Of a stretch of DNA of 59,365 bases, positions 19,849 to 55,162 are shown one piece after another. The stretch comes from an uncultured Eubacterium sp. Lineage in GTDB: Bacteria; Bacillota; Clostridia; Lachnospirales; Lachnospiraceae. The DNA is taken from NCBI GenBank assembly GCA_945910225.1, contig CAMDYG010000013.1, positions 1 through 59,365 of the forward strand, given 5' to 3'. The notes below the pieces were generated by a model that saw only the letters and a program-made list of their open reading frames with translations, had not been told where the DNA came from and did not search any database. Made by a program: the position numbers and the translations under genes. Position 1 is the stretch's first letter; every line of letters starts with the position of its first letter.

Positions 19849-21873
19849 ATGGAATTCGATAAAAGTTTTTTTGAAGATGAGATAAGAGATGGTTTCTATG
19901 TATCAGCAGAGATGAAGCATGCATGGGCAGCGCAGCTTGAGGTGCTGAATGATGTCGATAAAGCATGCAGGGAGAATGGAATCCAGTATTTTGCGGAGTG
20001 GGGAACACTTCTTGGGGCAGTAAGACATCATGGATTCATACCATGGGATGATGATATGGATATATGTATGAAAAGACCTGATTTTAATAAATTTGTTAAA
20101 AATGTTAAGGATATTATGCCGGAGGGCTATCAGATATACAATATAGAAAGTGATAAGGATAATGATAATCTGTTGGCAAGAATTATCAGCGGAAGGACAA
20201 TAGATTTCAGTGCAGAATACCTTGATAAATATCATGGCTTTCCATATGTTGCAGGGATAGATATATTTCCGCTGGATTTTATTTCACCAGACAGGGAAGA
20301 AGATGATTATTTATGTACTGTTATAGATATTGTCAATACAGTAGCCAAATTTATGAGAATGAAAGATTCAGAGAATGAAGCTATTGAAGGAGAGGACTTA
20401 GAAAAGCTGAATAGTAATCTTTTAAGTATAGAACAGCTATGCGGAGTAAGGATTGACAGGGAAAAAGATATAATACAGCAACTGAATATACTGGTAGACC
20501 AGTTATGCAGCCTTTATACAGAAGACGAAACAGAGGAACTGACTATAAGGGCTATATGGCAGAAGAATAAATCGTATAAATTCCGTAATTCATATTATAA
20601 AAAGGCTGTCAGAATTCCTTTTGAAAATATGACAATTCCTGTACCATTTGGATATGATGCAATTCTTAAACAAAAGTACGGAGATTACATGAAACTGGTT
20701 CATACATGGGATTCACATGATTATCCATTCTTTGATAAACAGAAAGATATTATCAGGGAAAAATCAGAGTCGGCTCTTAATGAATTTAGAGATAAGCTAG
20801 AGGATGTTATAACATTTAAGGAACACATTGCAATATTGCGCGGAAAGAGAAGAGTGTTAAAGGCGCTGGATAATAAAAAGGAAAAGAAAAATGTTGTGTT
20901 CATGCCGTTTAAACCAGAACACTGGGATGTAATGGATGGACTGTGGAGAGAGTATAAGGACAGGGAAGATGTAGATGTAAAGGTTATTCCTATTCCATAT
21001 TATTACAAGAATTATGATGGAACTGTTGAACAATACAGTACAAGCGCAGAGTATCCGGACTATATTAATGTGCTGTCAGAGGATGAATATAATTATGAGA
21101 AAGATGATCCGGATGAAATAATTATTCAGAATCCATATGACGGATATAATGTTGCAGCAACTATACACCCACGTTATTATGTCAGGAATCTGCTTATGCA
21201 TACAGATAAGCTTATATATATACCTTATTTTGCGACAGATGAGATTGATGCGCAGGATATGAGAGCAGATGTCAGCATGAATTCGTATGTGACAATGCCG
21301 GGAGTGGTATATGCTGATGAAGTTATATTGCAGTCAGAGAATATAAGGAATCTATACATAAGAAAGCTCACAGTTTTTTTTGGAGAAGAAAGCAGGCAAC
21401 TGTGGGAGAATCAGCTTAACGCAAATGGTGCGCAGTATCTGGTAAATGATAATAATAATTCGTTAAGATATAACAGGATACCTGAGAAATGGAGAAATCA
21501 GGCAGCCAGAAGTGACGGAAGTTATAAGAAAATAATACTTTACTATATAAGTACTAATGGTGTGCTTGAACATAAGCATGAAATGTTTGAAAAAATCGGA
21601 CGTACAATGGAAGTGTTTGAACAATATAAAGATGATGTGCTATGCTTGCTTGCTTTTGAGGGTAATATGGAAGAGGTTCTGGAAGAAGAAAATACAGAAC
21701 TTCTTATGGACTATCAGTGTACAGTAAGAAAATACAATGAATATGTTGTAAGCGCGGGAGAGTTAAGGAACGCTGTAAAGTCGTGCGATGCATTTTATGG
21801 AGAGGCAGGAGCAGAGGCACAGATGTGTAGAAATGCTAATAAGCCGGTTATGATAGAGAATGTGTATTTGTAA
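19849..21873 (+). CDS. LicD phosphotransferase fused to a TagF-like domain (1)
   Basis: A 674-residue two-part protein. Residues about 1-310 are a LicD domain: GTLLGAVRHHGFIPWDDDMD near 51-70 carries the DxD-type metal site. LicD proteins transfer phosphocholine or other phospho-alditol groups from a CDP-linked donor to a sugar. Residues about 325-674 resemble the two halves of a CDP-glycerol glycerophosphotransferase (TagB/TagF) GT-B fold; its end (CDAFYGEAG, then NKPVMIENVYL) mimics the donor-site end of that family. No membrane segments are seen. It is a tandem paralog of the next gene (48 bases away). It lies directly after a flagellin terminator, suggesting flagellin modification. Confidence 0.82.
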   Translation: MEFDKSFFEDEIRDGFYVSAEMKHAWAAQLEVLNDVDKACRENGIQYFAEWGTLLGAVRHHGFIPWDDDMDICMKRPDFNKFVKNVKDIMPEGYQIYNIESDKDNDNLLARIISGRTIDFSAEYLDKYHGFPYVAGIDIFPLDFISPDREEDDYLCTVIDIVNTVAKFMRMKDSENEAIEGEDLEKLNSNLLSIEQLCGVRIDREKDIIQQLNILVDQLCSLYTEDETEELTIRAIWQKNKSYKFRNSYYKKAVRIPFENMTIPVPFGYDAILKQKYGDYMKLVHTWDSHDYPFFDKQKDIIREKSESALNEFRDKLEDVITFKEHIAILRGKRRVLKALDNKKEKKNVVFMPFKPEHWDVMDGLWREYKDREDVDVKVIPIPYYYKNYDGTVEQYSTSAEYPDYINVLSEDEYNYEKDDPDEIIIQNPYDGYNVAATIHPRYYVRNLLMHTDKLIYIPYFATDEIDAQDMRADVSMNSYVTMPGVVYADEVILQSENIRNLYIRKLTVFFGEESRQLWENQLNANGAQYLVNDNNNSLRYNRIPEKWRNQAARSDGSYKKIILYYISTNGVLEHKHEMFEKIGRTMEVFEQYKDDVLCLLAFEGNMEEVLEEENTELLMDYQCTVRKYNEYVVSAGELRNAVKSCDAFYGEAGAEAQMCRNANKPVMIENVYL

Positions 21874-21920
21874 CGCATATATTTGGGAGACCATGAAAAA
21901 CAGGCAAGAATGGAGATATT

Positions 21921-24140
21921 ATGCTGCAGTTTCCAGATAGTTATTTTGAAGATGAAGTAAGAGATGGATTCTATGTTCCATCAATGATAAAGAGAGCATG
22001 GGCTACGGCACTAGATGTATTGTGCGAGGTAGATCGCATATGCTGTAAATACAATATAAAATATTATGCAGAGTGGGGTACTCTTCTTGGAGCAGTCCGC
22101 CATGCTGGATTTATTCCATGGGATGATGATCTGGATATTGGAATGATGAGAACTGACTATAGAAAATTCTGTGAGGTGGCGCCTAAAGAATTTAAAGAAG
22201 GTTTTCAGATATTTACATTTAACACGCAGAAAGATTTTCATCATTTTCTTGCAAGGGTGGTGTGCAAAAACAGAATATGCTTTGAGGATGAACATTTAAG
22301 AAGGTTCCATGGATTTCCATATATAGCAGGACTGGATATATTTGTCCATGATAATGTCTCGGATGATGCTATGTTGCAGGAAAAATGTGAAAAAACAGCA
22401 GAGTATGTTATCACGGTGGCAGATGCGATTGGCGATGGAAGGCTTAACAAAGCACAGGAGACAGAGGCACTGGGAAGAATTAATAATATGCTTCATGTTA
22501 ATTGTACTTCAATTGAAGATAAGGAGCAGGAAAGAATACAGCTATATAATATGGCTGAGAGTGTATTTGCATCATTTGAACATGAAGAATGTACAGAAAT
22601 GACGCAGATGATGCCACATAGTCTGTATGGAAGACATTTAAGAATTCCTAAGAAGTTCTACGAGAAGCTTGTAAGAATTCCGTTTGAGAATACGACAATA
22701 CCCGTGCCAGCAGGCTTTGACGCTATGTTAAAGCGTAGGTATGGTGATTATATGAAGCTTGTCAGAAATGCAGGCGGTCATGATTATCCGTTCTATGAAT
22801 CACAGAAGAGACAGCTTGAAGCGCTTATGGATTTTAAACTGCCTGAGTATACATATGATGAGAAAAAGGCAGTACGAGAAGCTGATCCTGAAGAACTGTC
22901 AGGTTATAGAAGGTATCTGAAGGATTATCTTGATAATATTGAAGGACGGATTGAAGAAATCGGACATATACAGGACACAGAAGTCATAAAAGAGAAGCTT
23001 GTTGATGTGCAACAGGAAGTGATTGATATGGGAAACCTTATCGAGAAGATAAAAGGTGAAGGGACGGAAAGTGTAAGATGCCTGGAACGTTTCTGTGATG
23101 TTATATACACAATGTATCAGGAAAATAATGCTGATATAAAAGCTGAGTATGACAATGTAAGAAGAATACTGGAAAAAGATATTGTTGAAAAGAAAGAAGT
23201 ACTTATTCTTGTGAGTAAGGCTTCTGAGTGGAAGTATATAGAGAATGTATGGAAGAAACATAAAGAGGAACAGGACACAGAAGTGGCTGTTGCTGTACTT
23301 CCGTATTATTATAAAGAATATGATGGAAGCATAAAGAAAGAAGTAAATGAACTGGGAAACTTTACAACAGATATTGGCGCTGTTGATTTAGCGCAATATG
23401 ATATTGCACTGCATCATCCAGACATTATATATATGCAGAATCCATTTGATAATGAAAATAAAGCAATAGGAATTGAGAGAAAATATTATTCAGACAGATT
23501 AAAACATTGTACCAACAAACTTGTCTATATACAGTCGTTTACACTTGAAGAGTTTGATTCTTCTAATGAACGGGAGTATAAGAATATGGGGTGTTTCTGC
23601 ACAGTACCTGGTGTAGTAAATTCTGATGAGGTATATGTACAGTCTGAGAATATGCGTAATATGTATATAAAGAAGCTGACTGAATTCGCAGGCAAAGAAA
23701 CTGAAAACATATGGAAAGCTAAAATATATGTTAAACCGGATTGGATGAAGAATGAGGGACATAATGTTGTTAAAGGCAATGGAAAAATAAAGATTTTGTT
23801 CTATACTTCAATAAGCGGACTTATGCAGAATTCAGAGATAGCGGCGGGTAAGATAAAGAATGTATTAGATGTATTTAAACAATACTCAGATAAGATAGAG
23901 GTTATCTGGTGTGTTCAGAGCCTTGTTGATACTGTTATGGAGGATATAGACAGGAATCTTAGTGAGCAGATAAATACAATCAGGGATGAATACAGAATTG
24001 AAGAAATCGGACGTATATGTAGCGACAAGGATAAAGATATACTTATTTCATGTGATGCATATTATGGTGACATATCTTCAGTGGTTCAGGAGTACAGAAA
24101 TGCAGATAAGCCTGTAATGATAATGAATTATGAGGTGTAG
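21921..24140 (+). CDS. LicD phosphotransferase fused to a TagF-like domain (2)
   Basis: A 739-residue paralog of the preceding gene. It has an N-terminal LicD domain with GTLLGAVRHAGFIPWDDDLD near residues 53-72 and a C-terminal GT-B-like domain ending in SCDAYYGDISSVVQEYRNAD. The difference is an inserted charged coiled-coil of about 65-110 residues (roughly 315-430) between the two. Together with the first copy it may add two different phosphodiester-linked groups. GGAG precedes the start. The next gene begins 3 bases after the stop, so the two are probably translated together. Confidence 0.8.
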   Translation: MLQFPDSYFEDEVRDGFYVPSMIKRAWATALDVLCEVDRICCKYNIKYYAEWGTLLGAVRHAGFIPWDDDLDIGMMRTDYRKFCEVAPKEFKEGFQIFTFNTQKDFHHFLARVVCKNRICFEDEHLRRFHGFPYIAGLDIFVHDNVSDDAMLQEKCEKTAEYVITVADAIGDGRLNKAQETEALGRINNMLHVNCTSIEDKEQERIQLYNMAESVFASFEHEECTEMTQMMPHSLYGRHLRIPKKFYEKLVRIPFENTTIPVPAGFDAMLKRRYGDYMKLVRNAGGHDYPFYESQKRQLEALMDFKLPEYTYDEKKAVREADPEELSGYRRYLKDYLDNIEGRIEEIGHIQDTEVIKEKLVDVQQEVIDMGNLIEKIKGEGTESVRCLERFCDVIYTMYQENNADIKAEYDNVRRILEKDIVEKKEVLILVSKASEWKYIENVWKKHKEEQDTEVAVAVLPYYYKEYDGSIKKEVNELGNFTTDIGAVDLAQYDIALHHPDIIYMQNPFDNENKAIGIERKYYSDRLKHCTNKLVYIQSFTLEEFDSSNEREYKNMGCFCTVPGVVNSDEVYVQSENMRNMYIKKLTEFAGKETENIWKAKIYVKPDWMKNEGHNVVKGNGKIKILFYTSISGLMQNSEIAAGKIKNVLDVFKQYSDKIEVIWCVQSLVDTVMEDIDRNLSEQINTIRDEYRIEEIGRICSDKDKDILISCDAYYGDISSVVQEYRNADKPVMIMNYEV

Positions 24141-24142: not shown

Positions 24143-25315
24143 ATGAATATACTTGTTATTGGAGAGAGGTTGTTTACGGATTATGCATTGCAGGCATTAG
24201 ATGATACTGCACATATGGTTGATGTCTATTATTGGGATGGCACATTTGGACCAGAGCTGCTTATGGATTCGGGTATCAATGATTATGACTGCATAGTTGT
24301 TATGTTTGATGATGATAAGTTATCAGCAGATATTACAGCTATGATTAAGACAATTGTTACTAATGAGAGCTGTACAGTATTTGATTATATTTTATGGCAT
24401 AAAGCAATGCTGCCTGCCATGAGGGCAGACCTGATTATGAGTAATCCTTTGTATCATTCATATGATGGACTGATTCTTGGCTTGTCACATGCGGAGGTTG
24501 GAATACTTGCAGACAGATTACAGGGGAATTATGCTAATCTGGCTGTTTCATCACAGGATATATATTATAATTATAAGACTCTTGAGTATTGCATTGATAA
24601 TTACTGGGAGAAGATAAAAGATCTCAAACATATAATTATAGATATGTATGATTATGAATATTTTAATTTCGATACATCTCTTGCTAAGAATATATACAGA
24701 TATTTTATGTGGGGCGGTTACAATCTTGATGGGCATAATATGACACGCAATAAAATATATAAAAACAGCCTCGAGGAAGTCCGCAATTATCTGCTATATA
24801 GTAAATATAAGGGACTGGATATAAGTAAGCTTGGGATGTGGAAGGACTTGTTCCCGGACACATATTATATGAATGGGTATGCCGATTACAGAGGTGTTAA
24901 CAGGGTTGAACAGAGAATGGAGATGATTACGGACAGACTTGTTGAAGAGTATGAGGTAACATCAAGCACTGTGCGCAATGAGTATCCCGAAACTATCAGT
25001 GAGAATGTGTCTGTTATGAATGACATGCTTGCATTAATATATAGTAAGTGGCCTGACATTAAAGTAGATATAATACTTCTTCCAATATATAAAGGTATTC
25101 TTGATAAGAGAGAACCATATTATATTAAATGGAGAGAACAGTTTATGGGAGTTATAGAGGACCTAAGCAGCAGATATACGTTCAGGTTCACATCTTATCT
25201 GGAGGATGAAATGACTGCGGACAAGAAGTATTATTATGACAAAGATCATCTTAATTACCTTGGCGCATATGTGTTTACGCAGAAGTTAAAGCAAATGCTT
25301 GGAGAACAGTTATAA
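24143..25315 (+). CDS. Putative SGNH/GDSL-like hydrolase or O-acyl-transfer protein
   Basis: The 390-residue protein is not recognised with certainty. Two features recall SGNH-fold enzymes: an early strand-turn GLILGLSHAEVGI near residue 110 (a block-I-like Ser after Gly) and a C-terminal DKDHLNYLGAYVF near 369, which fits the catalytic Asp-x-x-His block followed by the usual helix. Such proteins add or remove acyl groups on glycans (DltD, PatB, OatA partners). No signal peptide or membrane segment is seen, so cytoplasmic action is likely. It starts three bases after the LicD2 stop, hence one operon. Confidence 0.45.
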   Translation: MNILVIGERLFTDYALQALDDTAHMVDVYYWDGTFGPELLMDSGINDYDCIVVMFDDDKLSADITAMIKTIVTNESCTVFDYILWHKAMLPAMRADLIMSNPLYHSYDGLILGLSHAEVGILADRLQGNYANLAVSSQDIYYNYKTLEYCIDNYWEKIKDLKHIIIDMYDYEYFNFDTSLAKNIYRYFMWGGYNLDGHNMTRNKIYKNSLEEVRNYLLYSKYKGLDISKLGMWKDLFPDTYYMNGYADYRGVNRVEQRMEMITDRLVEEYEVTSSTVRNEYPETISENVSVMNDMLALIYSKWPDIKVDIILLPIYKGILDKREPYYIKWREQFMGVIEDLSSRYTFRFTSYLEDEMTADKKYYYDKDHLNYLGAYVFTQKLKQMLGEQL

Positions 25316-25356: not shown

Positions 25357-25383
25357 TAATATTGAGCGGATGACATCCGATAT
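25357..25383 (+). promoter_or_regulatory. Sigma-D-type promoter upstream of wecB
   Basis: TAAT, 15 bases, TCCGATAT. -35 matches 3 of 4, -10 7 of 8, with the same spacing as the flagellin promoter. It would drive either wecB and following genes or a short RNA ending at the terminator at 25456-25490. Confidence 0.7.
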
Positions 25384-25387
25384 ATAA

Positions 25388-25455
25388 GATATATGTAGAA
25401 GAAACGTATATCCTATAGACATGGAAGTCAGGATGCAATATTTATTGAATGTGCG
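25388..25455 (+). promoter_or_regulatory. Flagellin-leader-like region with GGA hairpins
   Basis: GATATATG/CGTATATC forms an 8-bp hairpin (25388-25412, one G-U pair). GAC/GTC (25418-25429) presents ATGGAA in its loop, followed at once by CAGGATG. The stretch from GTC-AGGATG to AATATTTATT resembles the flagellin leader at 18887-18916. No flagellin coding region follows; a terminator does. Confidence 0.5.
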
Positions 25456-25490
25456 AATTCCGTGTATGGGTAAATACACGGAATTTTTTT
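25456..25490 (+). terminator. Perfect 12-bp intrinsic terminator just before wecB
   Basis: AATTCCGTGTAT and ATACACGGAATT (loop GGGTAA) with a run of seven T. It lies 16 bases before the wecB ATG and after the sigma-D promoter, an unusual place unless it belongs to a lost flagellin gene, an attenuator or a small RNA. Confidence 0.9.
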
Positions 25491-25505: not shown

Positions 25506-26603
25506 ATGAAAGTATTAGCTGTATATGGTACGAGACCAGAAGCTATTAAAATGTGTCCACTAATATTAGAGATGAAGAACAGACCAGAGGTTGAGTGTGT
25601 CGTGTGTCTGACAGGACAACATAGGGAAATGCTTGATCAGGTAAATGGATTATTTGGAATAACAGCTGACTATGATCTTAATATAATGCAGAAAGGACAG
25701 TCGCTTGCAGACATTACGTCAAAAGTGCTGCAAGGACTCGATCTGGTTCTTGATAAGGAAAAACCTGATGTAATGCTTGTACATGGAGATACAACAACTT
25801 CATTTGCAGCAGCTCTGGCGGCGTTTTACAGAAATATTCCTGTAGGTCATGTTGAGGCAGGCCTAAGAACATACAATATGAAGTCTCCATATCCGGAAGA
25901 ATTTAACAGGCAGGCTGTAGATTTAATATGCAATTATTATTTTGCACCTACAGAAACTGCAAAAGAACATCTTATTAAAGAAGGAAAGAGCATGTCAGAC
26001 ATATATGTTACTGGGAATACGGTAATAGATGCGTTAAAGACTACAGTGGATAAATCTTTTTCAGATGACAATATTGAGTGGGCAAAGGGCAGCAGACTTA
26101 TATTACTTACTTCGCACAGAAGAGAGAATATTGGTGAGAATATGAAACATATATTTGAGGCTGTTAATGCTATTGTGGCTGAGTATACTGATGTCAAGGT
26201 TATATATCCGTTACACAAGAACCCCAGAGTCAGGGAGATAGCTTATGAGTATTTCAAGGATAATGACAGAATAAGACTGATAGAGCCATTGGATGTATAT
26301 CATTTTCATAATTATATACAGCAATGCTTCCTGATAATGACAGATAGTGGAGGTGTGCAGGAAGAAGCCCCATCTCTTGGCAAGCCTGTTCTGGTATTAA
26401 GAGAGAATACTGAAAGACCAGAGGGGGTTGCGGCAGGTACATTGAAGCTGGTTGGAGTTGAGAAAGAATCTATATACAGAGGTGTTAAGGAGTTGCTGGA
26501 TAATCGCGAAACATATAGCAAGATGAGCAAGGCAAGTAATCCTTATGGGGATGGAAATGCTTCTAAATATATAGTTGATGCTTTATTAAAAATTATGAGG
26601 TAA
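25506..26603 (+). CDS. wecB: UDP-N-acetylglucosamine 2-epimerase (non-hydrolysing)
   Basis: The 365-residue GT-B-like enzyme carries the family marks GTRPEAIKMCPLI near residue 8, LTSHRRENIGENM near 203 and TDSGGVQEEAPSLGKPVL near 280. It interconverts UDP-GlcNAc and UDP-ManNAc, giving a ManNAc donor for the glycan. The frame stays open 19 codons upstream through the terminator, but the ATG at 25506 after AATGGAGAAA is the proper start. No dehydrogenase (wecC) lies next to it. It probably supplies an island glycosyltransferase, though a cell-wall linkage-unit role (MnaA-like) is equally possible. Confidence 0.93.
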   Translation: MKVLAVYGTRPEAIKMCPLILEMKNRPEVECVVCLTGQHREMLDQVNGLFGITADYDLNIMQKGQSLADITSKVLQGLDLVLDKEKPDVMLVHGDTTTSFAAALAAFYRNIPVGHVEAGLRTYNMKSPYPEEFNRQAVDLICNYYFAPTETAKEHLIKEGKSMSDIYVTGNTVIDALKTTVDKSFSDDNIEWAKGSRLILLTSHRRENIGENMKHIFEAVNAIVAEYTDVKVIYPLHKNPRVREIAYEYFKDNDRIRLIEPLDVYHFHNYIQQCFLIMTDSGGVQEEAPSLGKPVLVLRENTERPEGVAAGTLKLVGVEKESIYRGVKELLDNRETYSKMSKASNPYGDGNASKYIVDALLKIMR

Positions 26604-26790: not shown

Positions 26791-27930
26791 ATGATATCTG
26801 TAATAGTGCCAATTTATAATTCAGAAAAATATTTAAATCAATGTTTAACAAGTCTTGTAAAGCAGACATATTCTGATTTAGAAATAATTCTTGTAAATGA
26901 TGGTTCAACTGATTCTAGTATGAATATATGTGAGAAGTTCAAAAAAGAAGATGATAGAATTATTCTTATAAATAAAGAAAACCAAGGATTAGTCAGAGCA
27001 CGTAAAGATGGTGCAAGAAAAGCTACGGGTGAATATATAACATTTATTGATGCGGATGATTGGATTGATGCAGATACATATGATAATTTAAGAGATTTTA
27101 AGTCAGATATTATTGCGTATGGGCTGGTTGAAGAATATGGCTATAAAATCAAGAAAAAAACAAATAAGTTTAAAGATGGATTTTATGAAAAAGATGAGAT
27201 TTCAGATTATATAATACCACAAATGCTATGTGCAGATAATTTCTTTGAATTTGGTCTATTACCGAATCTTGTATGCAAATTGATAAAGCGCACTTTATTT
27301 CTGGAAATGATGGAAGATGTGAGCGATGACGTATCTGTTGGGGAAGACGTAGACTTCTTTTATAGAATAGTTTTTAAGGCAGAAACACTAACAATAAGAT
27401 CATATTGTCCGTATCATTACAGACAGCATTCTGAATCTATGATGCGAAAGAAAATTGATATTGAATCAATAAAAAAACTGTATTTTGATTTATTAGCAAT
27501 TAATGGCGTAAAAAAGAAGACGGAATGGGAAATACAATTAAACAAATATATCATGTTTGTAATGTTATTAAAAAGACCAGATAAAGTGGTTCATCTAATA
27601 AGGGAAATCAGCGAGATAAATGGAAGCGTTGTTATATATGGAGCAGGGGCTTTTGGAAAAGGCATATATACTCAGTTAAAGCAAAACAAGAAAATTAAAG
27701 AACTTTTTATTGTTGATAAACAATGGAAGGATCTTAGCAAGGAAAACATACTAATTGATAATCCTGAAAGAATTACTGATATCAATCCAGATAAAGTGAT
27801 AATTACAATTCTTGATGAAAGGGTATGCAATTATGTGAAAGAGTATTTGATTGGGATTGGCATTGGAACAGATAAAATAATTAGAATAAATTTTTCGGAA
27901 TTATGTGGTAATAAAGTCTTTGATATATAA
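26791..27930 (+). CDS. GT2 glycosyltransferase with C-terminal Rossmann module
   Basis: A 379-residue protein. Residues 1-~240 are a GT-A family 2 glycosyltransferase: ISVIVPIYNSEKYLNQCL, the EIILVNDGSTD nucleotide site and the metal-binding IDADDWID near 90. Residues about 265-375 form a small Rossmann-like module (VVIYGAGAFGKGIY, then LFIVDKQW) that recurs in five other island proteins. The gene is more AT-rich than its left neighbours. A weak GAAAGAG precedes the ATG, which overlaps the pseudogene's frame. Substrate unknown. Confidence 0.85.
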   Translation: MISVIVPIYNSEKYLNQCLTSLVKQTYSDLEIILVNDGSTDSSMNICEKFKKEDDRIILINKENQGLVRARKDGARKATGEYITFIDADDWIDADTYDNLRDFKSDIIAYGLVEEYGYKIKKKTNKFKDGFYEKDEISDYIIPQMLCADNFFEFGLLPNLVCKLIKRTLFLEMMEDVSDDVSVGEDVDFFYRIVFKAETLTIRSYCPYHYRQHSESMMRKKIDIESIKKLYFDLLAINGVKKKTEWEIQLNKYIMFVMLLKRPDKVVHLIREISEINGSVVIYGAGAFGKGIYTQLKQNKKIKELFIVDKQWKDLSKENILIDNPERITDINPDKVIITILDERVCNYVKEYLIGIGIGTDKIIRINFSELCGNKVFDI

Positions 27931-46818: not shown

Positions 46819-47955
46819 ATGATATTATTTTATCAGTGGAATGCATTTATGCAGAGAGGGATGGAGAATGCTCTCAAAAGATTAAATATAGAATATGAAG
46901 TGTATTATGATTGTGCCAGGGACTGGGATAGTGATAATGAATTTGCAGACAGATTCAGAAAAAGAATTGCAGGTGGTATATACGATATTGTGATTTCGAT
47001 TAATTTCATGCCGGTAATATCTGATATATGCAATGATTGTTCGATTAAGTATGTATCATGGGTATATGATTCACCTCTTCATATCAGACGCCTTGATACC
47101 CTTAAGAATAAATGCAATTATATTTTTTTCTTTGACAGGGCACAGGCGGATTATTATTTTGCAGATGGGGTAACAGGAGCGAGGCATCTTGCACTGGCTG
47201 CTGATCCGGATGTTTTTGCAGGAGTACAGAAGGGTACTTATGATTGTGATGTTGCATTTCTTGGGCAGCTGTATAAATCAGAGTATCAGGATTTATGCAG
47301 GGGGCTTAGCCTGTATAGCAGAGGGTATCTAGAGGGGATTATTGCAGCGCAGTCACAGATTAATGGCGGTTATATAATTGATGAGATGCTGACAGAGGAT
47401 ACGCTTGGAATGGTTAATACAGACTTTTTAAAGGCGAGTAAGGGCAGATTTTCGGTGACTGAAAGAGAATTATCGTATACACTTGCCAAGGAAACAACGG
47501 GGAGACAGAGGTATACGGCGCTTGCATTGCTATCGGACAGATGCAGGGTAAATGTTTATTCTAAGGATACAGATGAACGGCTTGAAAAAGCTTCGTTTTG
47601 CGGATATGCAGATTACTATGATAAGATGCCAGCTGTGTTTAGAAACAGCAAGATCAATCTTAATATTTCTTTATGCACAATCCAGACAGGAATCCCGCTG
47701 AGAGTGCTGGATATTATGGCGTGTGGTGGATTTGTGCTTACGAATATGCAGCCTGAGCTTATGGAATATTTTATTCCGGGAGAGGATGTTGCGGTGTATG
47801 AGGATATGAAAGATATGATTGCTAAGGTACAGTTTTATCTTGAGCACGAAGAGTTAAGAAAAAGAATTGCACATAATGGATTTTTGAAAGTTTGTGAAAT
47901 ATTCAGATATGACGACAGAATAAAGTATATGTTGGAGATTGCAAATGAAAAATGA
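46819..47955 (+). CDS. CgeB/DUF3880-like glycosyltransferase (1)
   Basis: A 378-residue GT-B protein. The N-terminal half matches the DUF3880 type (INFMPVISDICNDCSIKYVS, WVYDSP, YIFFFDRAQADYYF, LALAADPDVF). The C-terminal half is the donor domain (FRNSKINLNISLC, QTGIPLRVLDIMACGGFVLT, IPGEDVAVYED). Relatives sit in flagellin and capsule glycosylation loci. It is the first of four such paralogs here. The frame is open far upstream into the flagellin, but the ATG at 46819 after GGGGGAAC gives the same start as the paralogs. It overlaps the next gene by 11 bases. Confidence 0.85.
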   Translation: MILFYQWNAFMQRGMENALKRLNIEYEVYYDCARDWDSDNEFADRFRKRIAGGIYDIVISINFMPVISDICNDCSIKYVSWVYDSPLHIRRLDTLKNKCNYIFFFDRAQADYYFADGVTGARHLALAADPDVFAGVQKGTYDCDVAFLGQLYKSEYQDLCRGLSLYSRGYLEGIIAAQSQINGGYIIDEMLTEDTLGMVNTDFLKASKGRFSVTERELSYTLAKETTGRQRYTALALLSDRCRVNVYSKDTDERLEKASFCGYADYYDKMPAVFRNSKINLNISLCTIQTGIPLRVLDIMACGGFVLTNMQPELMEYFIPGEDVAVYEDMKDMIAKVQFYLEHEELRKRIAHNGFLKVCEIFRYDDRIKYMLEIANEK

Positions 47956-48994
47956 TATGACGGATGTTAAGATATCGGTAATTGTACCATGCCATAATGT
48001 TGGAGGAATGGTTGGCGAATGTCTTGAAAGTATTGTTAATCAGACGATAGGATTGTCACATCTGGAGATAATTCTGGTTGATGATGCATCTACTGATAAT
48101 ACAGTAGAGGTTCTTAAATATTACGAGCAGAAGTATTCTGAAAATATAATGCTTGTGCTGTGTGATAAGAATGGAAGACAGGGAACAGCGAGGAATATAG
48201 GAATGTCATATGCAACAGGGGATTATATAAGCTTTGTTGATTCAGATGACTGGATACATCCGGATATGTATAAGATTCTTGCTGGTATAATCATGAATAA
48301 TAACTGTGACATTGTGCAGTTCAGATACAAGGAAACGAAACAGCTGCCGTCCGATTATAACAGACATATAGATAATGTCGATGTGAAGATATATGATTAT
48401 GCAAAAGACAGAAAAAAGTATCTTCTGGACTCATCTATACTTAATGAGTCATGTACAACCAAGTTATACAGCAGCCGGCTGATAGCAGAGGCGGGAGTGC
48501 GTTATGCAGAAAATGTTGCATATGAAGAGCCTCTTTTTACATATCCGTTGAAGTTCTATGTAGACAGGGTTGCTGTAACACAGGCGCAGTTATACTACTA
48601 TAGATATAATGAGAATGGTACTATGCTTTCTTACATGAATAATCCTTCAACAATGGTACAGCATCTGCAGGTGCAGCAGGATGTGTATATAAGAATGAGT
48701 AATTCTGGATATATGGAAGAATTCAGGGATGAGATTAACCTGTATTTTTTACATTCATTTTATGCGGAAACATTTTATTTTATGGCAGCAAGAAGGATGC
48801 CAATGATGGCTGTTATGTTAAGATACATGATAAATGTTGTTACTAAATACATTCCGGATTATAAGGACAACCCATATATCGGATATCCGGGTGTCAGGGA
48901 AGAGATGGAAAGTCTTAAGCTCATAGACTATGCTGGACTGCCTGATGATGAACTTGAGAAAATGGTAGCGGATTATATGAAGAGCTGCATTTAA
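47945..48994 (+). CDS. GT2-family glycosyltransferase (paralog A)
   Basis: A 349-residue GT-A enzyme: KISVIVPCHNVGGMVGECL, LEIILVDDASTDNT, RQGTARNIGMSYATGDY and the metal motif FVDSDDWIHPDM near 92. The C-terminal 130 residues are helical with several aromatic residues and no clear membrane segment. It resembles the GT2 at 52720. The ATG at 47945 (after GGAG at 47934) overlaps the end of the previous gene, so translation is probably coupled. Confidence 0.9.
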   Translation: MKNDMTDVKISVIVPCHNVGGMVGECLESIVNQTIGLSHLEIILVDDASTDNTVEVLKYYEQKYSENIMLVLCDKNGRQGTARNIGMSYATGDYISFVDSDDWIHPDMYKILAGIIMNNNCDIVQFRYKETKQLPSDYNRHIDNVDVKIYDYAKDRKKYLLDSSILNESCTTKLYSSRLIAEAGVRYAENVAYEEPLFTYPLKFYVDRVAVTQAQLYYYRYNENGTMLSYMNNPSTMVQHLQVQQDVYIRMSNSGYMEEFRDEINLYFLHSFYAETFYFMAARRMPMMAVMLRYMINVVTKYIPDYKDNPYIGYPGVREEMESLKLIDYAGLPDDELEKMVADYMKSCI

Positions 48995-49004: not shown

Positions 49005-50195
49005 GTGAAGATATTATATTATACATGGAATGAGATTATTAAGAATGACGTATGTGATGCTATAAAAGCTTGCGGACATGAGGTTAAGCTGCTGTCATAT
49101 GAGATTAAGAGTTATATTAAGGATGTTGAATTTCTTAATATTGTTGAAAATGAGCTGAATAATGCCAGAGATTGTGGAAAACCATATGATTTTATATTTT
49201 CATGTAATTTTATGCCTGTTATTTCTAAGATTGCACTGAGAAATAAAATTCCATATGTATCATGGACATACGACAGTCCATGCATGACTATGTATTCTGA
49301 AATGATATTTAATCCTTATAATTTTATGTTTCATTTTGATTCGTCAGAGGCTGACAGAATCAGAAATTTAGGAGTACAGCATATATATCATCTGCCGTTG
49401 GCTGTTAATGTGAGAAGAACAGATGCTCAGATCAGGGCATGTGCAGATAATGTCAGTCCTGTGCTTATTAATAAAGGCGTTGCATTTATGGGAAATCTGT
49501 ATAATAATGAACCGGATTTTGTTGAGAGTGTTGCAGGACTTCCGGATTATGAAAAGGGATATATCAATGGAATTAAGCTTGCACAGCTTGCGATGCTGGG
49601 AAGTGAGCTTCTGGAGGAAATGTTTGACGATGCTCTGTGCGACAGGCTTAAGAAGTATGTCAGTTTTTCAAAGGAAGAGGAATTCTTTGTAAAGGACACA
49701 GATATGATTCTTAATATGTTAAAGAAGAATATTTCATCAATGGAGAGAATCGGAATATTAAAGGAACTGTCCAAAGTGTGTGATGTTACGCTTTATACCC
49801 AGTCATCAGGATGTGATATGAGTGGTGTCAGAGTGAGAGGATATATAGATTACGAGCGGGATATGCCGGTCATGTTTGCCAATTCTCCAATTAATCTTAA
49901 TATTACTTTGAGGAATATCAGGACAGGAATTCCTCTGAGAGCGTTAGATATAATGGGAGCAGGAGGCTTTCTTCTTACCAATTATTGTCCTGAACTGAAT
50001 GAATATATGACAGAGGGAAAAGATTTTGTCTCATATATGGATGCCGGAGACTGCTGTGAGAAGGCAGTATACTATATAGAACATGAGGCTGAAAGAAAGA
50101 AGATAGCAGCTAATGGACATGAAAGAATACTTGATATGTTTACATATGAACATCAGATTAAGAAAATGTTTGATGTTATCAGAAAGGAACTGTGA
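49005..50195 (+). CDS. CgeB/DUF3880-like glycosyltransferase (2)
   Basis: A 396-residue GT-B paralog with FSCNFMPVISKIALRNKIPY, VSWTYDSP, NFMFHFDSSEADRI and the donor half MFANSPINLNITLRNIRTGI, then PLRALDIMGAGGFLLT. It starts with GTG after AAGGAGAG. It overlaps the next gene's frame region by a few bases and shares the domain order of its neighbours on both sides. The acceptor and sugar are unknown. Confidence 0.85.
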   Translation: MKILYYTWNEIIKNDVCDAIKACGHEVKLLSYEIKSYIKDVEFLNIVENELNNARDCGKPYDFIFSCNFMPVISKIALRNKIPYVSWTYDSPCMTMYSEMIFNPYNFMFHFDSSEADRIRNLGVQHIYHLPLAVNVRRTDAQIRACADNVSPVLINKGVAFMGNLYNNEPDFVESVAGLPDYEKGYINGIKLAQLAMLGSELLEEMFDDALCDRLKKYVSFSKEEEFFVKDTDMILNMLKKNISSMERIGILKELSKVCDVTLYTQSSGCDMSGVRVRGYIDYERDMPVMFANSPINLNITLRNIRTGIPLRALDIMGAGGFLLTNYCPELNEYMTEGKDFVSYMDAGDCCEKAVYYIEHEAERKKIAANGHERILDMFTYEHQIKKMFDVIRKEL

Positions 50196-50197
50196 CA

Positions 50198-51394
50198 ATG
50201 AATATACTTATATTTGAATATAAGAATTTCGGGACGGAAGATATTAAAGAATGTTTTGAAAAAAACGGGCATAAATATGTTGTTGTGGAAACTAATCTTT
50301 ACAGGGACAGAATAAGTCCTGAGTTTGACAAAATATTTGATGATAAGTTCGGGCAGGGAGTTGATAATAAGCCTTTTGACTGCGTGTTTACATTTAATTT
50401 CAGTCCGGTAATATCTAATAACTGCAAGAAAAGAAATGTGCCATATATAGCATTTGTGTATGATAGTCCACAGGTTCTTCTGTATTCATATACTATTATC
50501 AATCCGTGTAATTATGTGTTTATATTTGATAAGACACAGTATATGGAACTTAAGACGGCGGGCATTAATACTGTGTATTATGCGCCATTAGCGGTTAATG
50601 CTGACAGAATGAAACATATGCTTGATAAGACAGGCTGTTCACATAATATTGACAGATTTAAAGGAGACATTGCATTTGTTGGATCAATGTATAATGAAAA
50701 ACATAATCTTTTCGACAGACTTGAAGGCATAAATGATTTCACGAAAGGGTATCTGGATGCGATAATGAAGGCACAGAGAAAGGTGTATGGATATTTTTTT
50801 CTTGAACAGCTGTTATGCGGTGAGGTTCTTAAGGACATGATTAAGAATTATCCAGTTGAACCAAGTAAGGATGGAGTTGAAACTGTTTCTTATCTGTATG
50901 CTGATTATTTTCTTGCAAGGAAGATGGCATCAGATGAAAGAATGGATATAATGAAGCTGATTGGAAAGGAGTTTGGAAAGCAGTACAGTATTAACCTGTA
51001 TACACCTAATCAGACTCCGGGGCTTGCAGGTGTTAATAACTGTGGACCTATAGATTATTATGATGATATGCCGTATGTGTTCAGAAATTCAAAGATCAAT
51101 CTTAATATTACTCTGAGGAGTATCAAGTCAGGTATTCCGCTTAGAGGAATGGATATAATGGGGGCGGGAGGATTTCTCATGTCTAATTATCAGGAAGATT
51201 TCTTTGACTTCTTTGTTCCAGGAGAAGATATGGTATTGTATGAGTCTGAGGAGGATCTTATCTGCAAATGCAGGTATTACCTTGAACATGATGATGAAAG
51301 GGAAGCTATAGCAAGAAGTGGCAGAGAAAAAATAGCGGAACATCATACATATGATGTCCGCTTTAATGAGATTTTTAATATTGTTTTTAATTAA
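50198..51394 (+). CDS. CgeB/DUF3880-like glycosyltransferase (3)
   Basis: A 398-residue paralog (FTFNFSPVISNNCKKRNVPY, AFVYDSP, YVFIFDKTQYMEL; FRNSKINLNITLRSIKSGIP, LRGMDIMGAGGFLMS). The ATG at 50198 with AAAGGAAC upstream is preferred over a GTG two codons earlier. It is convergent with the fourth paralog: the last four bases TTAA serve both stop codons. Confidence 0.85.
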   Translation: MNILIFEYKNFGTEDIKECFEKNGHKYVVVETNLYRDRISPEFDKIFDDKFGQGVDNKPFDCVFTFNFSPVISNNCKKRNVPYIAFVYDSPQVLLYSYTIINPCNYVFIFDKTQYMELKTAGINTVYYAPLAVNADRMKHMLDKTGCSHNIDRFKGDIAFVGSMYNEKHNLFDRLEGINDFTKGYLDAIMKAQRKVYGYFFLEQLLCGEVLKDMIKNYPVEPSKDGVETVSYLYADYFLARKMASDERMDIMKLIGKEFGKQYSINLYTPNQTPGLAGVNNCGPIDYYDDMPYVFRNSKINLNITLRSIKSGIPLRGMDIMGAGGFLMSNYQEDFFDFFVPGEDMVLYESEEDLICKCRYYLEHDDEREAIARSGREKIAEHHTYDVRFNEIFNIVFN

Positions 51395-52563
51395 GAGAAA
51401 GCTTTGTCTATTATCTGCAGAAGACGGATGTCATATGTGTGGTATTTTGCAATGGTTTCATATCCATTGTGAGCTATTTCGAGACGTTTGTCTTCATGCT
51501 GAAGGTAATATATACAGAGCTCTTTTAAGTGTTCGGGACTTTCATAGGCAACCAGATCTTTTCCTATAGTAAATATTTCAGGAAGCTCTGACTGATAGTT
51601 GGTTATAAGAAAACCGCCAGCCCCTAATACATCAAATATTCTGAGCGGTAGTCCGGAACGTATGGATTTGGCTGTTATGTTGAGGTTGATTTTGCTGCAG
51701 TTGAATATAAGAGGCATTTCATCAAGTGATCTTGCAAAACCACGATTGTGAATGTGTGGCATGCTGCTGGTATCACTTCCTGTATACATATTAACCTGGA
51801 ATGAGTCAGAAAGCATTCTAAGAAGTCTCAGTCTTTCCTGCTCTGCAACCTTTACGCTGAGATAGTACTGGGCAACAAGAGCTTTGATATCAGCTCTTGA
51901 ACCTGGCGGAAATTCATAATGTGATGGGATACATGACAGCAGCCTTTCTGCCATTTCGTCGGTAAGTATATTTTCTATAAAGTTATAACCATAAACCCAT
52001 ATCTGTGAGTTGACTATTCCGTCAACAAAGCCTTTGCCATATTCAGACAGGATGGCATTGTTAAAAGGACATTTTTCCTGATACGTTGAACCTATAAATG
52101 AGATATCACTCCTGTATTGGTTTAACTTATTCTTACTGGCAGATGATATTACATTATTGCTGCGGATTAGATTCGTGGCAAGAGGAATATGGAAAATGTG
52201 TCCGTTATTATAATGACAGAATTCGTTATAAAGCATCCTGTCAAATAGAAATACTCTGTTCACGCTATTGGATAATGCGTTGGAATACAGTTCCAGTACA
52301 GGGCTGTCTACAATAAGGCTTATGTATATCAGTCCGGTTATCTGGCAGATATCAGACAGCCAGGGGAAGAAATTGATTGTGAACACAAATGAGTATTTAT
52401 TGCTGGTAAGTCTTGGCGCAACTATGGCAGCACATTGTGATGGCGTCAGATTTTTGTTATATATTTCTGCAGTTTCTTCATCAACTTCAAGACCAATGCG
52501 CCTGAAAGCATCTATTACATCTGGTTCACACAGGCTTCCATATCTGTATATGAATATTTTCAT
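51391..52563 (-). CDS. CgeB/DUF3880-like glycosyltransferase (4), inverted
   Basis: A 390-residue paralog on the minus strand: FTINFFPWLSDICQITGLIY, VDSPVLELY, RVFLFDRMLYNEF; and FNCSKINLNITAKSIRSGLP, LRIFDVLGAGGFLITNYQ. Its 3' end meets the preceding plus-strand paralog in a shared TTAA. A GGGG about 13 bases before the ATG is a poor ribosome-binding site. It is the only glycan gene in the island on this strand, so it may be separately controlled. Confidence 0.83.
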   Translation of the reverse strand: MKIFIYRYGSLCEPDVIDAFRRIGLEVDEETAEIYNKNLTPSQCAAIVAPRLTSNKYSFVFTINFFPWLSDICQITGLIYISLIVDSPVLELYSNALSNSVNRVFLFDRMLYNEFCHYNNGHIFHIPLATNLIRSNNVISSASKNKLNQYRSDISFIGSTYQEKCPFNNAILSEYGKGFVDGIVNSQIWVYGYNFIENILTDEMAERLLSCIPSHYEFPPGSRADIKALVAQYYLSVKVAEQERLRLLRMLSDSFQVNMYTGSDTSSMPHIHNRGFARSLDEMPLIFNCSKINLNITAKSIRSGLPLRIFDVLGAGGFLITNYQSELPEIFTIGKDLVAYESPEHLKELCIYYLQHEDKRLEIAHNGYETIAKYHTYDIRLLQIIDKAFS

Positions 52564-52719: not shown

Positions 52720-53736
52720 GTGAAGAAGTTAAGTGTAATTGTACCATGCTATAACGTAGGGAAGTATATTGACCGGTGTGTGGAATCGCTGACAAGCCAG
52801 ACACTTGATAAGTCGCAATATGAGATAATTCTGGTTGATGATGCTTCAACTGATGATACATGGAAACACATTGAGGACTGGGAAAGCAGGTTCCCTGATA
52901 TTATTATTGCGGTTCATTGTGATGTTAATGGGAAGATGGGACGTGCAAGAAATATCGGGTTGTCGTATGCGAGTGGCGAATATATAGGATATGCAGATAG
53001 TGATGACTGGACTGAGCCAGAGATGTTTGAAAATATGCTTGAGGCAGCAGAGAATGGAAATATGGATGTTGTTGTGTGCAAAAGCATAAGGGATCGTGGA
53101 AGTGATTATGACAAGTCGAAAGCTGGTACAGGCAGAATTAGTGTTATGAATATTGATTCTGAAGCTAAGAGAAAGGAATTCATAGTGGCTAATCCTATGA
53201 GTTATGCTGTGTGGGATAAGATTATAAGGCATTCATTACTTTCTGATAATAATATTTCGTTTCCTGAAGGACTTGCGTATGAGGATATATATTATGGAAC
53301 ATTGCTGCATTTGTATGCGGTAAAGATTGCATTTGTTGATTCTGTATTTTATCATTATTTTGTTAATCCGAAGTCTACAGTTTTGTTAAAAGATGTCGGA
53401 TATCATAAGGATATAATGAGTGTTAACAGGATGCTGTTTGATGAGCTTAATGCAAGAGGATGTTTTGATTCATATCATGACGAATTGGAACTGGATCTGC
53501 TGTTTACATGGTATCTGGGAACAATCAAGGTTATATGCTTAAGGTTTCAGAAGCCGCCGTATGATATGTTTTGCAGATTAAAGCAGGAGGTACTGGAGTG
53601 TATGCCGGACTGTTTTGACAATCCGTATATTGCAACGAGCATGAAGGAGTTCTATCAGCTTCTTATACAATTGTTAAAATGCAATGTAACAGAGGATGAA
53701 CTGATTCAGATAGCAGATAATTTTAAGAAAATGTAA
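52720..53736 (+). CDS. GT2-family glycosyltransferase (paralog B)
   Basis: A 338-residue GT-A enzyme: LSVIVPCYNVGKYIDRCVES, EIILVDDASTDDT, GRARNIGLSYASGEYIGY and DSDDWTEPEM near 90. Close in layout to the GT2 at 47945, so probably a duplicate. The start is GTG after AAAGGGGGAT. It is driven by its own sigma-A-type promoter and followed 43 bases later by the AMP-binding gene. Confidence 0.9.
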   Translation: MKKLSVIVPCYNVGKYIDRCVESLTSQTLDKSQYEIILVDDASTDDTWKHIEDWESRFPDIIIAVHCDVNGKMGRARNIGLSYASGEYIGYADSDDWTEPEMFENMLEAAENGNMDVVVCKSIRDRGSDYDKSKAGTGRISVMNIDSEAKRKEFIVANPMSYAVWDKIIRHSLLSDNNISFPEGLAYEDIYYGTLLHLYAVKIAFVDSVFYHYFVNPKSTVLLKDVGYHKDIMSVNRMLFDELNARGCFDSYHDELELDLLFTWYLGTIKVICLRFQKPPYDMFCRLKQEVLECMPDCFDNPYIATSMKEFYQLLIQLLKCNVTEDELIQIADNFKKM

Positions 53737-53779
53737 TACTATATTACATGCGATGATTATTATAAAGGATGGAAAAATC

Positions 53780-55162
53780 ATGACAGATAAGAATACATTT
53801 TATAATATGCTTGAGACTAATGCAAAAGAAAGACCGGATGCAGTTGCAGTGGTATATGATACAATGACTGTAACTTATGCAAAGCTTTTTGAAGATGTTA
53901 AGAAGAAGGCACTACATCTTCAGAAATTTGAAGGCAGAAGAATTGCTATATTTGGACCTGCTTCATACAGATGGATTGTTAATATGTATGGAACAATACT
54001 TGCGGGAAAGGATCTTGTACTTGTTGATTTCTTTCTGCCACATGATTCGAGAGTTGATCTGTTGAAAAAGACAGATGTAAGTTATACGCTTACCTCTACT
54101 AACCAGTACATTTTATCGGATAAAGATTCTATTATTATTGGAAGCGCAGAGCGTGATGATGTTGATGGGATGATATATGATGAGAATACCAGAGAAGGTA
54201 ATATTATTATGTTTACCGCAACAGCACATGAATGTGATAAGCCGGTTGTTCTTTCTGTGGAGAATATACTCAATACTACCAGGGCAATCAGCAGCAGAGT
54301 TGAATGTAATGATGAGGAAATAGTACTGGCGCAGATTCCGCTTCACAATGAATTTGGACTAATATACAGCCTTATATGGCCGATGACTTGTGGAGCCAAG
54401 GTGTGTATAGGAAGAGGACTCAGACATATTGATGCGGACACATATTACTATAATCCATCTATTCTTGTGGGAACTCCTTCGATGGTAGATTATTTAAGGA
54501 GCGTTAATGGCTTTAACAGGGAGCTTAAGACTGTAATAATAGGCGGTGCCAGTTGTCCTTTCAGATTGTTTGAGAATCTGTGTGACAATGATCTTAATGT
54601 TTATAATATTTATGGAATGACTGAAACCTCTGGATGTGTTGGCATTAATGAACTTTACGATGGATCTTATACTCTGTTTGATGACTCAGCTGTTTCAATT
54701 GCTGATGATGGAGAAATTCTTGTCAGCGGGGAATGTGTGATGCAGGGGTATTACAATGATGAGGCTGAAACTAAAAGAGTGTTAAGAGATGGCGTATATC
54801 ATACTGGTGATTATGGAAGAATTAATTCAAGCGGACGTCTTGTTCTTAACAGAAGAAATCCTGACATTATTCTGCTTCCAACAGGAGAAAAGATAAGCAG
54901 GATCAGGACTAATGAACAGATAACAGCTATTAATGGTGTGGCAGAGGGATTCATTACATTTTATGACAACAGGCTTACAGCTGTAATTGTTCCGATAGAT
55001 AAATCAGCTACAGAGGATGTATTTAAGAGAAGAATTGATAAGTACAATGAGAAGAAGGGATATCGTTGGGAAATACAGAAAATTATTCTCAGCAGGGAGC
55101 CACTGCCTAGAAGAGCTGATGGCAGCATAGATGAAGAAAAAATATATGATATTATTAAGTAA
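53780..55162 (+). CDS. AMP-binding (adenylate-forming) enzyme with altered core motifs
   Basis: A 460-residue ANL-superfamily protein: RPDAVAVVYDTMTVTYAKLF near 19, IYGMTETSGC near 275, YHTGDYGRINSSGRL near 338 and NRRNPDIILLPTGEKIS. Two catalytic motifs are altered. The phosphate loop, usually TSGTTGKPK, is here FTATAHECDKP (near 144), and the C-terminal Lys (PRTxxGK) is PRRADGSID near 443, with Ser instead. Such changes suggest a specialised or inactive enzyme. It would make an acyl-AMP or aminoacyl-AMP for glycan acylation; no carrier protein gene is next to it. The ATG at 53780 after AAAGGATGG is preferred over 53753. Confidence 0.75.
   Translation: MTDKNTFYNMLETNAKERPDAVAVVYDTMTVTYAKLFEDVKKKALHLQKFEGRRIAIFGPASYRWIVNMYGTILAGKDLVLVDFFLPHDSRVDLLKKTDVSYTLTSTNQYILSDKDSIIIGSAERDDVDGMIYDENTREGNIIMFTATAHECDKPVVLSVENILNTTRAISSRVECNDEEIVLAQIPLHNEFGLIYSLIWPMTCGAKVCIGRGLRHIDADTYYYNPSILVGTPSMVDYLRSVNGFNRELKTVIIGGASCPFRLFENLCDNDLNVYNIYGMTETSGCVGINELYDGSYTLFDDSAVSIADDGEILVSGECVMQGYYNDEAETKRVLRDGVYHTGDYGRINSSGRLVLNRRNPDIILLPTGEKISRIRTNEQITAINGVAEGFITFYDNRLTAVIVPIDKSATEDVFKRRIDKYNEKKGYRWEIQKIILSREPLPRRADGSIDEEKIYDIIK

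Follow-up and report, generated by a model that had tools for sequence, protein, structure and literature searches.

The window analysed here is the whole of contig CAMDYG010000013.1 (C13; 59,365 nucleotides) from the 2.41-Mb genome of an uncultured Eubacterium sp. of the Lachnospiraceae (100 contigs, 93.8% complete), and it carries a large set of glycan genes placed between and after two flagellin genes. The evidence argues that this locus is a flagellin glycosylation island (probability about 0.85), and the chance that the island includes transfer from a cytidine diphosphate (CDP)-alditol is judged somewhat better than even. Flagellar linkage is supported by the position of the genes, a sigma-D-type box 5' of wecB, the lack of recognised export genes, replacement of most of the island genes in the one congener available, and recurrence of its relatives beside flagellins in other genera; the phosphodiester donor chemistry is supported by the presence of LicD/FKRP-like transferases together with a TarI/IspD-like cytidylyltransferase, a dehydrogenase, and an epimerase. 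An initial annotation had proposed phosphodiester-linked alditol decoration of the filament. As predicted from the genes, phosphodiester-linked alditols on flagellin are well supported as genomics and unproven as chemistry: the flagellar linkage and, by homology, the donor chemistry stand, while a pentitol, attachment to flagellin, and activity of all of the domains are putative. The features that carry the argument are the following:

18934..19752, + strand: flagellin 1, presumed acceptor, 272 amino acids (PF00669 1.4e-46, PF00700 1.4e-29; sigma-D-type box at 18833)
45918..46736, + strand: flagellin 2, presumed acceptor, 272 amino acids (PF00669 3.5e-46; sigma-D-type box at 45842)
19849..21873, + strand: LicD domain (FKRP-like) fused to a C-terminal domain of the glycosyltransferase B fold (GT-B), PHP motif absent (PF04991 above cut-off)
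21921..24140, + strand: second LicD::GT-B fusion (PF04991 2.4e-33)
33640..35868, + strand: LicD domain with altered WGDDVN metal motif (PF04991 2.7e-14) plus TagF-like domain (PF04464 at 34969-35589, 5.3e-11)
35920..37377, + strand: LicD protein (PF04991 4.9e-30)
40904..41572, + strand: Rpe-like 3-epimerase of a distinct clade (PF00834 5.7e-50)
41569..43038, + strand: TagF-like phosphotransferase with SGYxKMD and FKPHPN motifs (PF04464 2.5e-5, barely above cut-off)
43051..43734, + strand: TarI/IspD-like cytidylyltransferase (PF01128 1.1e-31; closest PDB sequences 2vsh, 3f1c, 4jis)
43731..44735, + strand: Zn-type medium-chain dehydrogenase, GatD-like rather than TarJ-like (4a2c GatD 168 bits versus 6xh9 47.9)
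25377..25384, + strand: CCGATA core of the sigma-D-type site 5' of wecB (TAATATTGAGCGGATGACATCCGATATA)
25455..25486, + strand: terminator-like hairpin in the wecB leader (13 pairs and a T-run; -16.9 kcal/mol, z -5.5)
25506..26603, + strand: wecB/mnaA, UDP-GlcNAc 2-epimerase (PF02350 8e-123)

The glycan genes adjoin the flagellin genes inside a flagellar locus. Between 8.3 and 18.8 kb lie, in order, flgM, flgN, two flgK-like genes, flgL, fliW, flaG, fliD, fliS, and a second flgN-like gene; then come flagellin 1, 18 putative glycan genes, flagellin 2, and seven further glycan genes, followed 3' of the island by a short open reading frame (ORF) without an assigned family, an opposite-strand FliD-like gene, nusG, and the L11 and L1 genes. 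The total from 19849 to 55162 is thus 25, which bears out the earlier estimate of about that number, and three of these (24143, 31658, and 38538) have no Pfam family above cut-off. Both flagellins possess N and C domains, and because the longest run of identical bases common to the two genes is only 41, an assembly join at this point is unlikely. The FliD-like gene (55704-57044, minus strand) has relatives of 33-38% identity beside fliS-flgN (L020), beside nusG (L127), and in L121. Searches of the window yielded no tRNA and no Rfam match at gathering score.

Four island proteins (19849, 21921, 33640, and 35920) match LicD (PF04991) above cut-off, as the initial annotation had stated, and three of the four keep the metal motif GFIPWDDDxD; 33640 has GFIPWGDDVN. 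Members of the LicD and TagF families use CDP donors to transfer phospho-groups. Two of the four TagF-like domains originally proposed, namely 41569 and the C-terminal half of 33640, match PF04464 above cut-off; the remaining pair are GT-B domains whose fold is TagF-like but which lack the His-Pro motif. This pair, forming the C-terminal halves of 19849 and 21921, is without a Pfam match and lacks the PHP motif of some relatives, but it shows similarity to the TagF alignment (hhalign probability 95.6, E 1.3e-8), and the predicted fold of the 19849 half resembles GT-B enzymes that include TagF and TarL. Foldseek ranked epimerases first and TagF 25th, with FKRP not among the best 50; the FKRP-like match was obtained by re-aligning the top 1000. 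The LicD domain is FKRP-like in predicted fold. Because no TagF came up when the TagF alignment was searched as a profile against PDB sequences, the TagF assignment rests on PF04464 and the motifs. Consequently, four LicD and four TagF-like domains are right as homology, with the number of probably active domains being smaller.

The putative donor path is compact, the epimerase, TagF-like enzyme, cytidylyltransferase, and dehydrogenase lying nearly back to back from 40904 to 44735. Better matches to Rpe and to IspD are present on contigs C19 and C43, respectively, of the same genome, and so the island epimerase and cytidylyltransferase are second copies. The nearest PDB relatives of the cytidylyltransferase are 2vsh (99 bits) and 3f1c (96 bits), both TarI-type, and 4jis (92 bits), labelled a ribitol-5-phosphate cytidylyltransferase; next, at 76.5 bits, is an IspD. 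The dehydrogenase is closest to galactitol-1-phosphate 5-dehydrogenase (4a2c, 168 bits) and matches the ribulose-5-phosphate reductase 6xh9 with 47.9 bits. Since this enzyme is unlike TarJ, a canonical TarI/TarJ ribitol path was rejected. Of 18 epimerase copies fetched from other loci, 15 share 69-82% identity with the island epimerase (two more are at 34%; row L139, a wrong-strand ORF, was dropped from the alignment and an unrelated ORF beside the genome's own Rpe was ignored), compared with 30% for Escherichia coli Rpe, 29% for AlsE, and 32% for the genome's own Rpe. The island epimerase retains the HxDxMDG, VHLM, and DG stretches but has GNAGQ in place of Rpe GFGGQ and WDGAC in place of VDGG. 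This clade, judged from sequence, is distinct and conserved: 24 copies at 71% identity or more occur in 21 of 200 family genomes, the window included, and 16 of the 24 have a TarI-like gene (at least 42%) no more than 6 kb away. Among the remaining eight, one has only a 25-residue TarI-like piece and one is on a 3.7-kb contig.

These genes point to a path that would make a CDP-alditol, but with a distinct epimerase clade and a dehydrogenase that is not TarJ, the alditol need not be ribitol, and the probability that it is a pentitol falls below one half. It is conceivable, though rather unlikely, that the CDP-linked group of the flagellin island is instead a hexitol phosphate or other polyol derived from a hexulose phosphate. 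Such a product would fit the GatD-like dehydrogenase and an epimerase that is about equally far from Rpe and AlsE and whose GNAGQ and WDGAC motifs differ from both; against it, the NCBIfam score of the epimerase is higher for Rpe (177 bits) than for AlsE (152 bits), both below cut-off, and a ribitol-5-phosphate enzyme, 4jis, is among the nearest relatives of the cytidylyltransferase.

Late flagellar genes are driven by sigma-D. When a site is defined as TAAA with at most one mismatch, a 13-17 nt spacer, and CCGATA, the plus strand of the window holds six (1198, 8261, 15194, 18833, 25377, and 45842), all in gaps between ORFs and ahead of mreB-flgG, flgM, flaG, flagellin 1, wecB, and flagellin 2, respectively; none of the four sites on the minus strand is in such a gap. 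In 200 random first-order Markov sequences, the same gaps held a mean of 0.10 plus-strand sites (maximum 3). This CCGATA-anchored count was chosen after the result of a scan with the full 8-base second box, which found no site at zero or one mismatch (1.2 expected with one) and 22 sites with two mismatches against 14.35 expected. Because the full box is not discriminating, support rests on the CCGATA core and its position, and the strong sigma-D promoters noted earlier at the flagellins and wecB hold in that respect and not for the full 8 bases. A scan for sigma-70-type promoters (first half 106 versus 107.4, chance; second half 113 versus 84.3, sd 10.0) was not used.

The start of wecB at 25506 is a later ATG than the mechanical ORF start of 25449, and was preferred because the earlier start would place the 25455-25486 hairpin within the coding region. 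Lying between the sigma-D-type box and the gene, this hairpin is a candidate attenuator for the downstream genes. Two further terminator-like hairpins follow the flagellins, within 19752-19850 (z -4.5) and within 46736-46800 (z -5.7). Of the three, a pattern scan listed only that of wecB, the others coming from folding; the scan as a whole gave 11 matches in the first half versus 5.8 expected (sd 2.8) and seven versus 7.3 in the second.

LicD, TagF, TarI, and WecB are typical wall-polymer enzymes, and it could be argued that the locus makes a cell-envelope polymer of the teichoic-acid or capsule type whose genes stand beside flagellin by happenstance. The four families themselves would favour this explanation, as would the occurrence of the cassette away from flagellar genes described below. 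Yet among the 25 island proteins, Pfam and a hydropathy scan revealed no flippase, polymerase, ABC exporter, or lipid-linked first transferase (three proteins being without a family); the hydropathy threshold was passed by two of the 25, with one scan window each, and both belong to soluble families. In contrast, the other LicD/TagF contigs of this genome do carry nearby genes with multiple predicted transmembrane segments. With no export gene recognised in the island, an envelope polymer loses standing, and the flagellar linkage is repeated in other genera, making this explanation improbable.

The initial annotation regarded a set of this size and domain mix as unrecognised, but it does not stand alone: several Lachnospiraceae genera have relatives carrying LicD, TagF, and the CDP-alditol cassette next to flagellar genes. 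The recurrent cassette consists of the LicD::GT-B fusion, the Rpe-like epimerase, the TarI/IspD-like cytidylyltransferase, and the GatD-like dehydrogenase. It was followed, by raw matches, through L037 plus all 22 rows, among 38 non-window ones, that reach 47% as relatives of the dehydrogenase; this makes 23 loci, with 8 to about 40 kb covered at each. Of these, 20 have a TarI-like gene in the stretch, 14 an island-clade epimerase, and three an Rpe-like gene of greater distance (34-48%). Flagellar filament or assembly genes occur in 10, and a flagellin gene in seven (L037, L103, L127, L128, L133/L152, L135/L143, and L137); within the ten, L121 is represented by the FliD-like gene alone, and L129/L146 by divergent flagellar genes (22-30%) alone. 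The order in L137 (genome G116, strain AC2028) is flaG, fliD, fliS, flgN, LicD::GT-B, epimerase, TarI-like gene, dehydrogenase, flagellin, flagellin. Very long flagellin ORFs stand beside the same cassette in L128 (11852-17296, 1814 amino acids) and L037 (2-4099, 1366 amino acids, incomplete at the stretch end).

The TagF-like protein 41569 has 46 relatives in named genomes, 21 of them at 39% or more; these 21 are labelled Lachnospiraceae, Butyrivibrio, Acetatifactor, and Lachnospira, with Eubacterium and Ruminococcus once each, and 11 have a flagellin or fliD/flaG match in their flanks. In a 100-genome sample, LicD lies within 20 kb of flagellin in 10 of the 34 genomes with both families, compared with 4.0 expected under uniform placement (P 0.0026), or in nine of 33 (P 0.0049) when the window's genome is removed. 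The 20-kb limit was self-chosen, distances were read by eye for the flagellins among the matches listed, contig breaks can mask distances, and the null model is a rough one. In L018 (1680-9302, G041), a TagF-like gene stands, by eye, beside NeuA/NeuB-like and Maf-like genes, a hint that the family may accept other CMP/CDP donors. In six of the 21 relatives (L031, L032, L033, L038, L044, and L049), though not in the window, an SGNH-like gene is immediately 5' of the TagF-like gene.

A system like Clostridioides difficile type A, in which the phosphodiester partner would be an amino acid rather than an alditol, was also considered. A TagF-like transferase and methyltransferases are indeed present, and in G116 a TagD-like cytidylyltransferase, a methyltransferase, and a racemase-like gene (by eye) stand beside flagellin and this TagF. 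The island, though, has no recognised phosphoserine-phosphatase-like protein or LicC-type cytidylyltransferase, having the TarI/IspD-type enzyme, dehydrogenase, and epimerase instead, and an amino acid partner is accordingly given little credence. Separately, C14 of the window's own genome (L114:10911-12917) carries a LicD gene together with, by eye, TagD-like and racemase-like genes, with no flagellin match in the stretch; the latter two resemble the TagD/racemase pair that adjoins flagellin in L015.

The one congener in the samples, G008, retains 18 upstream genes and both flagellins (20 of 20 tested, 49-96%). Only two of the 25 island genes, both CgeB-like, have relatives there at 50% or more over most of their length, and 11 have no match. 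The G008 set 3' of the flagellins contains an IspD-type cytidylyltransferase beside an epimerase/dehydratase, a CTP_transf_like::GFO_IDH fusion, an aldolase II, an ATP-grasp protein, two aminotransferases, and four LicD matches; its nusG-side far end is outside the stretches examined. Thus, with one congener compared, island content is variable at a fixed place and the flagellar genes are conserved, and it seems that CDP-activated substituents are traded, as modules, around a core rich in LicD.

Several findings weigh against a flagellin island that works with a CDP-alditol. The cassette is not flagellum-specific, since 13 of the 23 dehydrogenase loci have no flagellar genes in the stretch; the genome's other LicD loci could use the same donor; and in G008 no relative of the epimerase, the dehydrogenase, or TagF reaches the thresholds used. 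By Pfam, the island contains no Maf-type enzyme or nonulosonate synthesis genes, WecB alone being present, and, of 23 loci examined (two of which overlap), 11 have CgeB-like genes no more than 6 kb from a flagellin. The hairpins 3' of both flagellins mean that co-transcription of the island with flagellin is not given. Finally, the TarI assignment of the cytidylyltransferase is soft on sequence grounds: Staphylococcus aureus TarI (6xhp) scores 67 bits, under the best IspD, and the NCBIfam ispD model (144 bits) outscores the ribitol-5-phosphate model NF001183 (121 bits), both below cut-off.

The remaining genes of the island are as follows:

24143..25315, + strand: SGNH-like protein (own motif reading; no Pfam match)
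26791..27930, + strand: GT2 with weak, below-cut-off PglD_N-like C-terminal domain (PF00535 1.3e-34)
27945..28982, + strand: methyltransferase with weak N-terminal Rossmann-like match (PF13489 2.6e-21)
28994..31633, + strand: GT2 with C-terminal methyltransferase (PF00535 4.6e-36, PF08241 6.6e-17)
31658..32686, + strand: beta-propeller-like protein, by eye only (Pfam matches all below cut-off; NCBIfam none)
32690..33610, + strand: polysaccharide pyruvyl transferase (PF04230 6.1e-14)
37387..38496, + strand: DXD glycosyltransferase, Gly_transf_sug (PF04488 2.3e-14)
38538..40007, + strand: 489-amino-acid protein, fucosyltransferase-like by eye only (no Pfam, NCBIfam, or PDB-sequence match)
44761..45825, + strand: GT4 (PF00534 2e-27)
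46807..47955, + strand: CgeB-like glycosyltransferase, DUF3880 plus Glyco_trans_1_2 (PF13524 6e-24, PF12996 2.4e-12); start inferred, the mechanical ORF beginning at 46489 inside flagellin 2
47939..48994, + strand: GT2 (PF00535 2.9e-35)
49005..50195, + strand: CgeB-like glycosyltransferase (PF12996 2.3e-19)
50192..51394, + strand: CgeB-like glycosyltransferase, congener relative 54% (PF13524 2.1e-25)
51391..52563, - strand: CgeB-like glycosyltransferase, congener relative 57% (PF13524 6e-24)
52720..53736, + strand: GT2 (PF00535 2.3e-35)
53753..55162, + strand: AMP-forming acyl/aminoacyl ligase (PF00501 2e-36)

For the ligase, no NCBIfam model reached its cut-off among the best 25 of 87 matches. 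A seven-sequence alignment of the SGNH-like protein has invariant S115-H116 (GxSH) and D366-x-D368-H369 (DxDHLN); its fold model is of low quality (pLDDT 49.8). Small PglD_N-like or Rossmann-like domains occur on unrelated glycan enzymes, below the Pfam cut-off in 26791, 27945, and 33640 and by eye in 28994, 35920, and 37387, and two coiled-coil matches were taken as chance. Within the island, 40307-40877 appears to be the broken remnant of an Rpn-family (recombination-promoting nuclease) gene. From 26791 to 35868, five of six genes have a GC content of 28-31% (28994 has 36%), compared with 34-41% for the other genes measured, which suggests that this part of the island arrived recently.

These observations have led to a working model, in which the substrates, the order of steps, flagellin as acceptor, and the identity of the alditol are inferred. 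Flagellin is modified in the cytoplasm prior to export. A cytoplasmic glycosyltransferase, for which the CgeB-like DUF3880 enzymes are candidates, would add the first sugar to Ser/Thr of both short flagellins; the GT2, GT4, and DXD transferases would extend the glycan with substrates that include N-acetylmannosamine from WecB, and methyl and pyruvyl groups would be attached to it. The 3-epimerase, GatD-like dehydrogenase, and cytidylyltransferase would convert a ketose phosphate to an alditol phosphate and then to a CDP-alditol, from which the FKRP-like LicD domains and the TagF-like enzyme would transfer alditol phosphate onto the flagellin-bound glycan, giving phosphodiester-linked polyols. 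The AMP-forming ligase and the SGNH-like protein may attach an acyl group. In its boldest form, which is tentative and on balance doubtful, the model would have a new CDP-alditol made by an undescribed 3-epimerase clade and a GatD-like reductase, with FKRP-fold LicD::GT-B fusions polymerising or capping flagellin glycans with its phosphate; the result would be a bacterial, cytoplasmic equivalent of the phosphoribitol core in alpha-dystroglycan, and its exchange between species would diversify the filament surfaces of commensals in gut and rumen.

The flagellins of gut Lachnospiraceae are known immune targets. If the model is true, swappable phosphodiester-linked polyols on filaments may bear on immune masking, on phage adsorption, and on antibody tests that use bare recombinant flagellin. 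The cassette could also offer a defined route to a CDP-alditol and a simple bacterial model for FKRP-type transfer. According to a 2025 review, Lactobacillus agilis is the only commensal in which flagellar glycosylation has been examined (PMC12355684).

Flagellin islands, phosphodiester-linked flagellin glycans, and a predicted enterobacterial ribitol island have already been published; the Lachnospiraceae LicD/CDP-alditol type looks new. A literature search, with subscription journals mostly outside its coverage, found, among the papers listed, no account of LicD or CDP-alditol genes in Lachnospiraceae flagellin islands, and no parallel there to the LicD/FKRP-like fusion, to the epimerase clade, or to the distribution among Lachnospiraceae. 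Clostridium flagellar islands show variable glycan genes beside flagellin in Gram-positive anaerobes, but those islands, for pseudaminic acid and others, concern nonulosonic acids and sugars such as Fuc4N or paratose, without mention of LicD or a phosphodiester (PMC13317340). The Geobacillus flagellin glycosylation island has tagD, a CDP-polyol gene in a Gram-positive island, but it involves CDP-glycerol and a phosphatidylglycerophosphate synthase, with LicD and TagF unmentioned (PMC5109656). Enterobacterial island type 12, found in two strains, resembles the present one in having predicted polyol-forming genes within a flagellin island, its ribitol genes having been predicted in 2016; it belongs to another phylum, and its text makes no mention of LicD (PMC4875605). 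Between them, the Geobacillus and enterobacterial islands show that polyol genes at such sites had been anticipated. In C. difficile type A (CD0240-CD0244), TagF-like CD0244 is needed for the phospho-linked group on the flagellin sugar (PMC10714395), and the likeness extends to a phospho-substituent thought to be CDP-activated, a methyltransferase, and a flagellar locus. The island counterpart of CD0244 is 41569, by PF04464 family rather than by direct comparison. Membership in type A was rejected because counterparts of CD0241 (phosphoserine-phosphatase-like) and CD0242 (nucleotidyltransferase) were not found by Pfam in the island; moreover, type A has five genes, one sugar, and N-methyl-threonine, with LicD unmentioned (PMC10714395), whereas here there are 25 genes, LicD/FKRP-like domains, and an alditol-type path. 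With the TarI/TarJ/TarL and TagF system of wall teichoic acid, the island shares a TarI/IspD-like enzyme and TagF-like transferases, but it has a GatD-like dehydrogenase rather than TarJ, an extra epimerase, and no recognised exporter. A further parallel in enzyme types is offered by mammalian ISPD-FKTN-FKRP, which transfers ribitol-phosphate to alpha-dystroglycan (PMC4873967) and likewise combines IspD-family CDP-alditol synthesis with FKRP-fold phosphotransferases; that system uses ribitol in the eukaryotic secretory pathway, whereas the island is bacterial, presumably cytoplasmic, and has LicD fused to GT-B.

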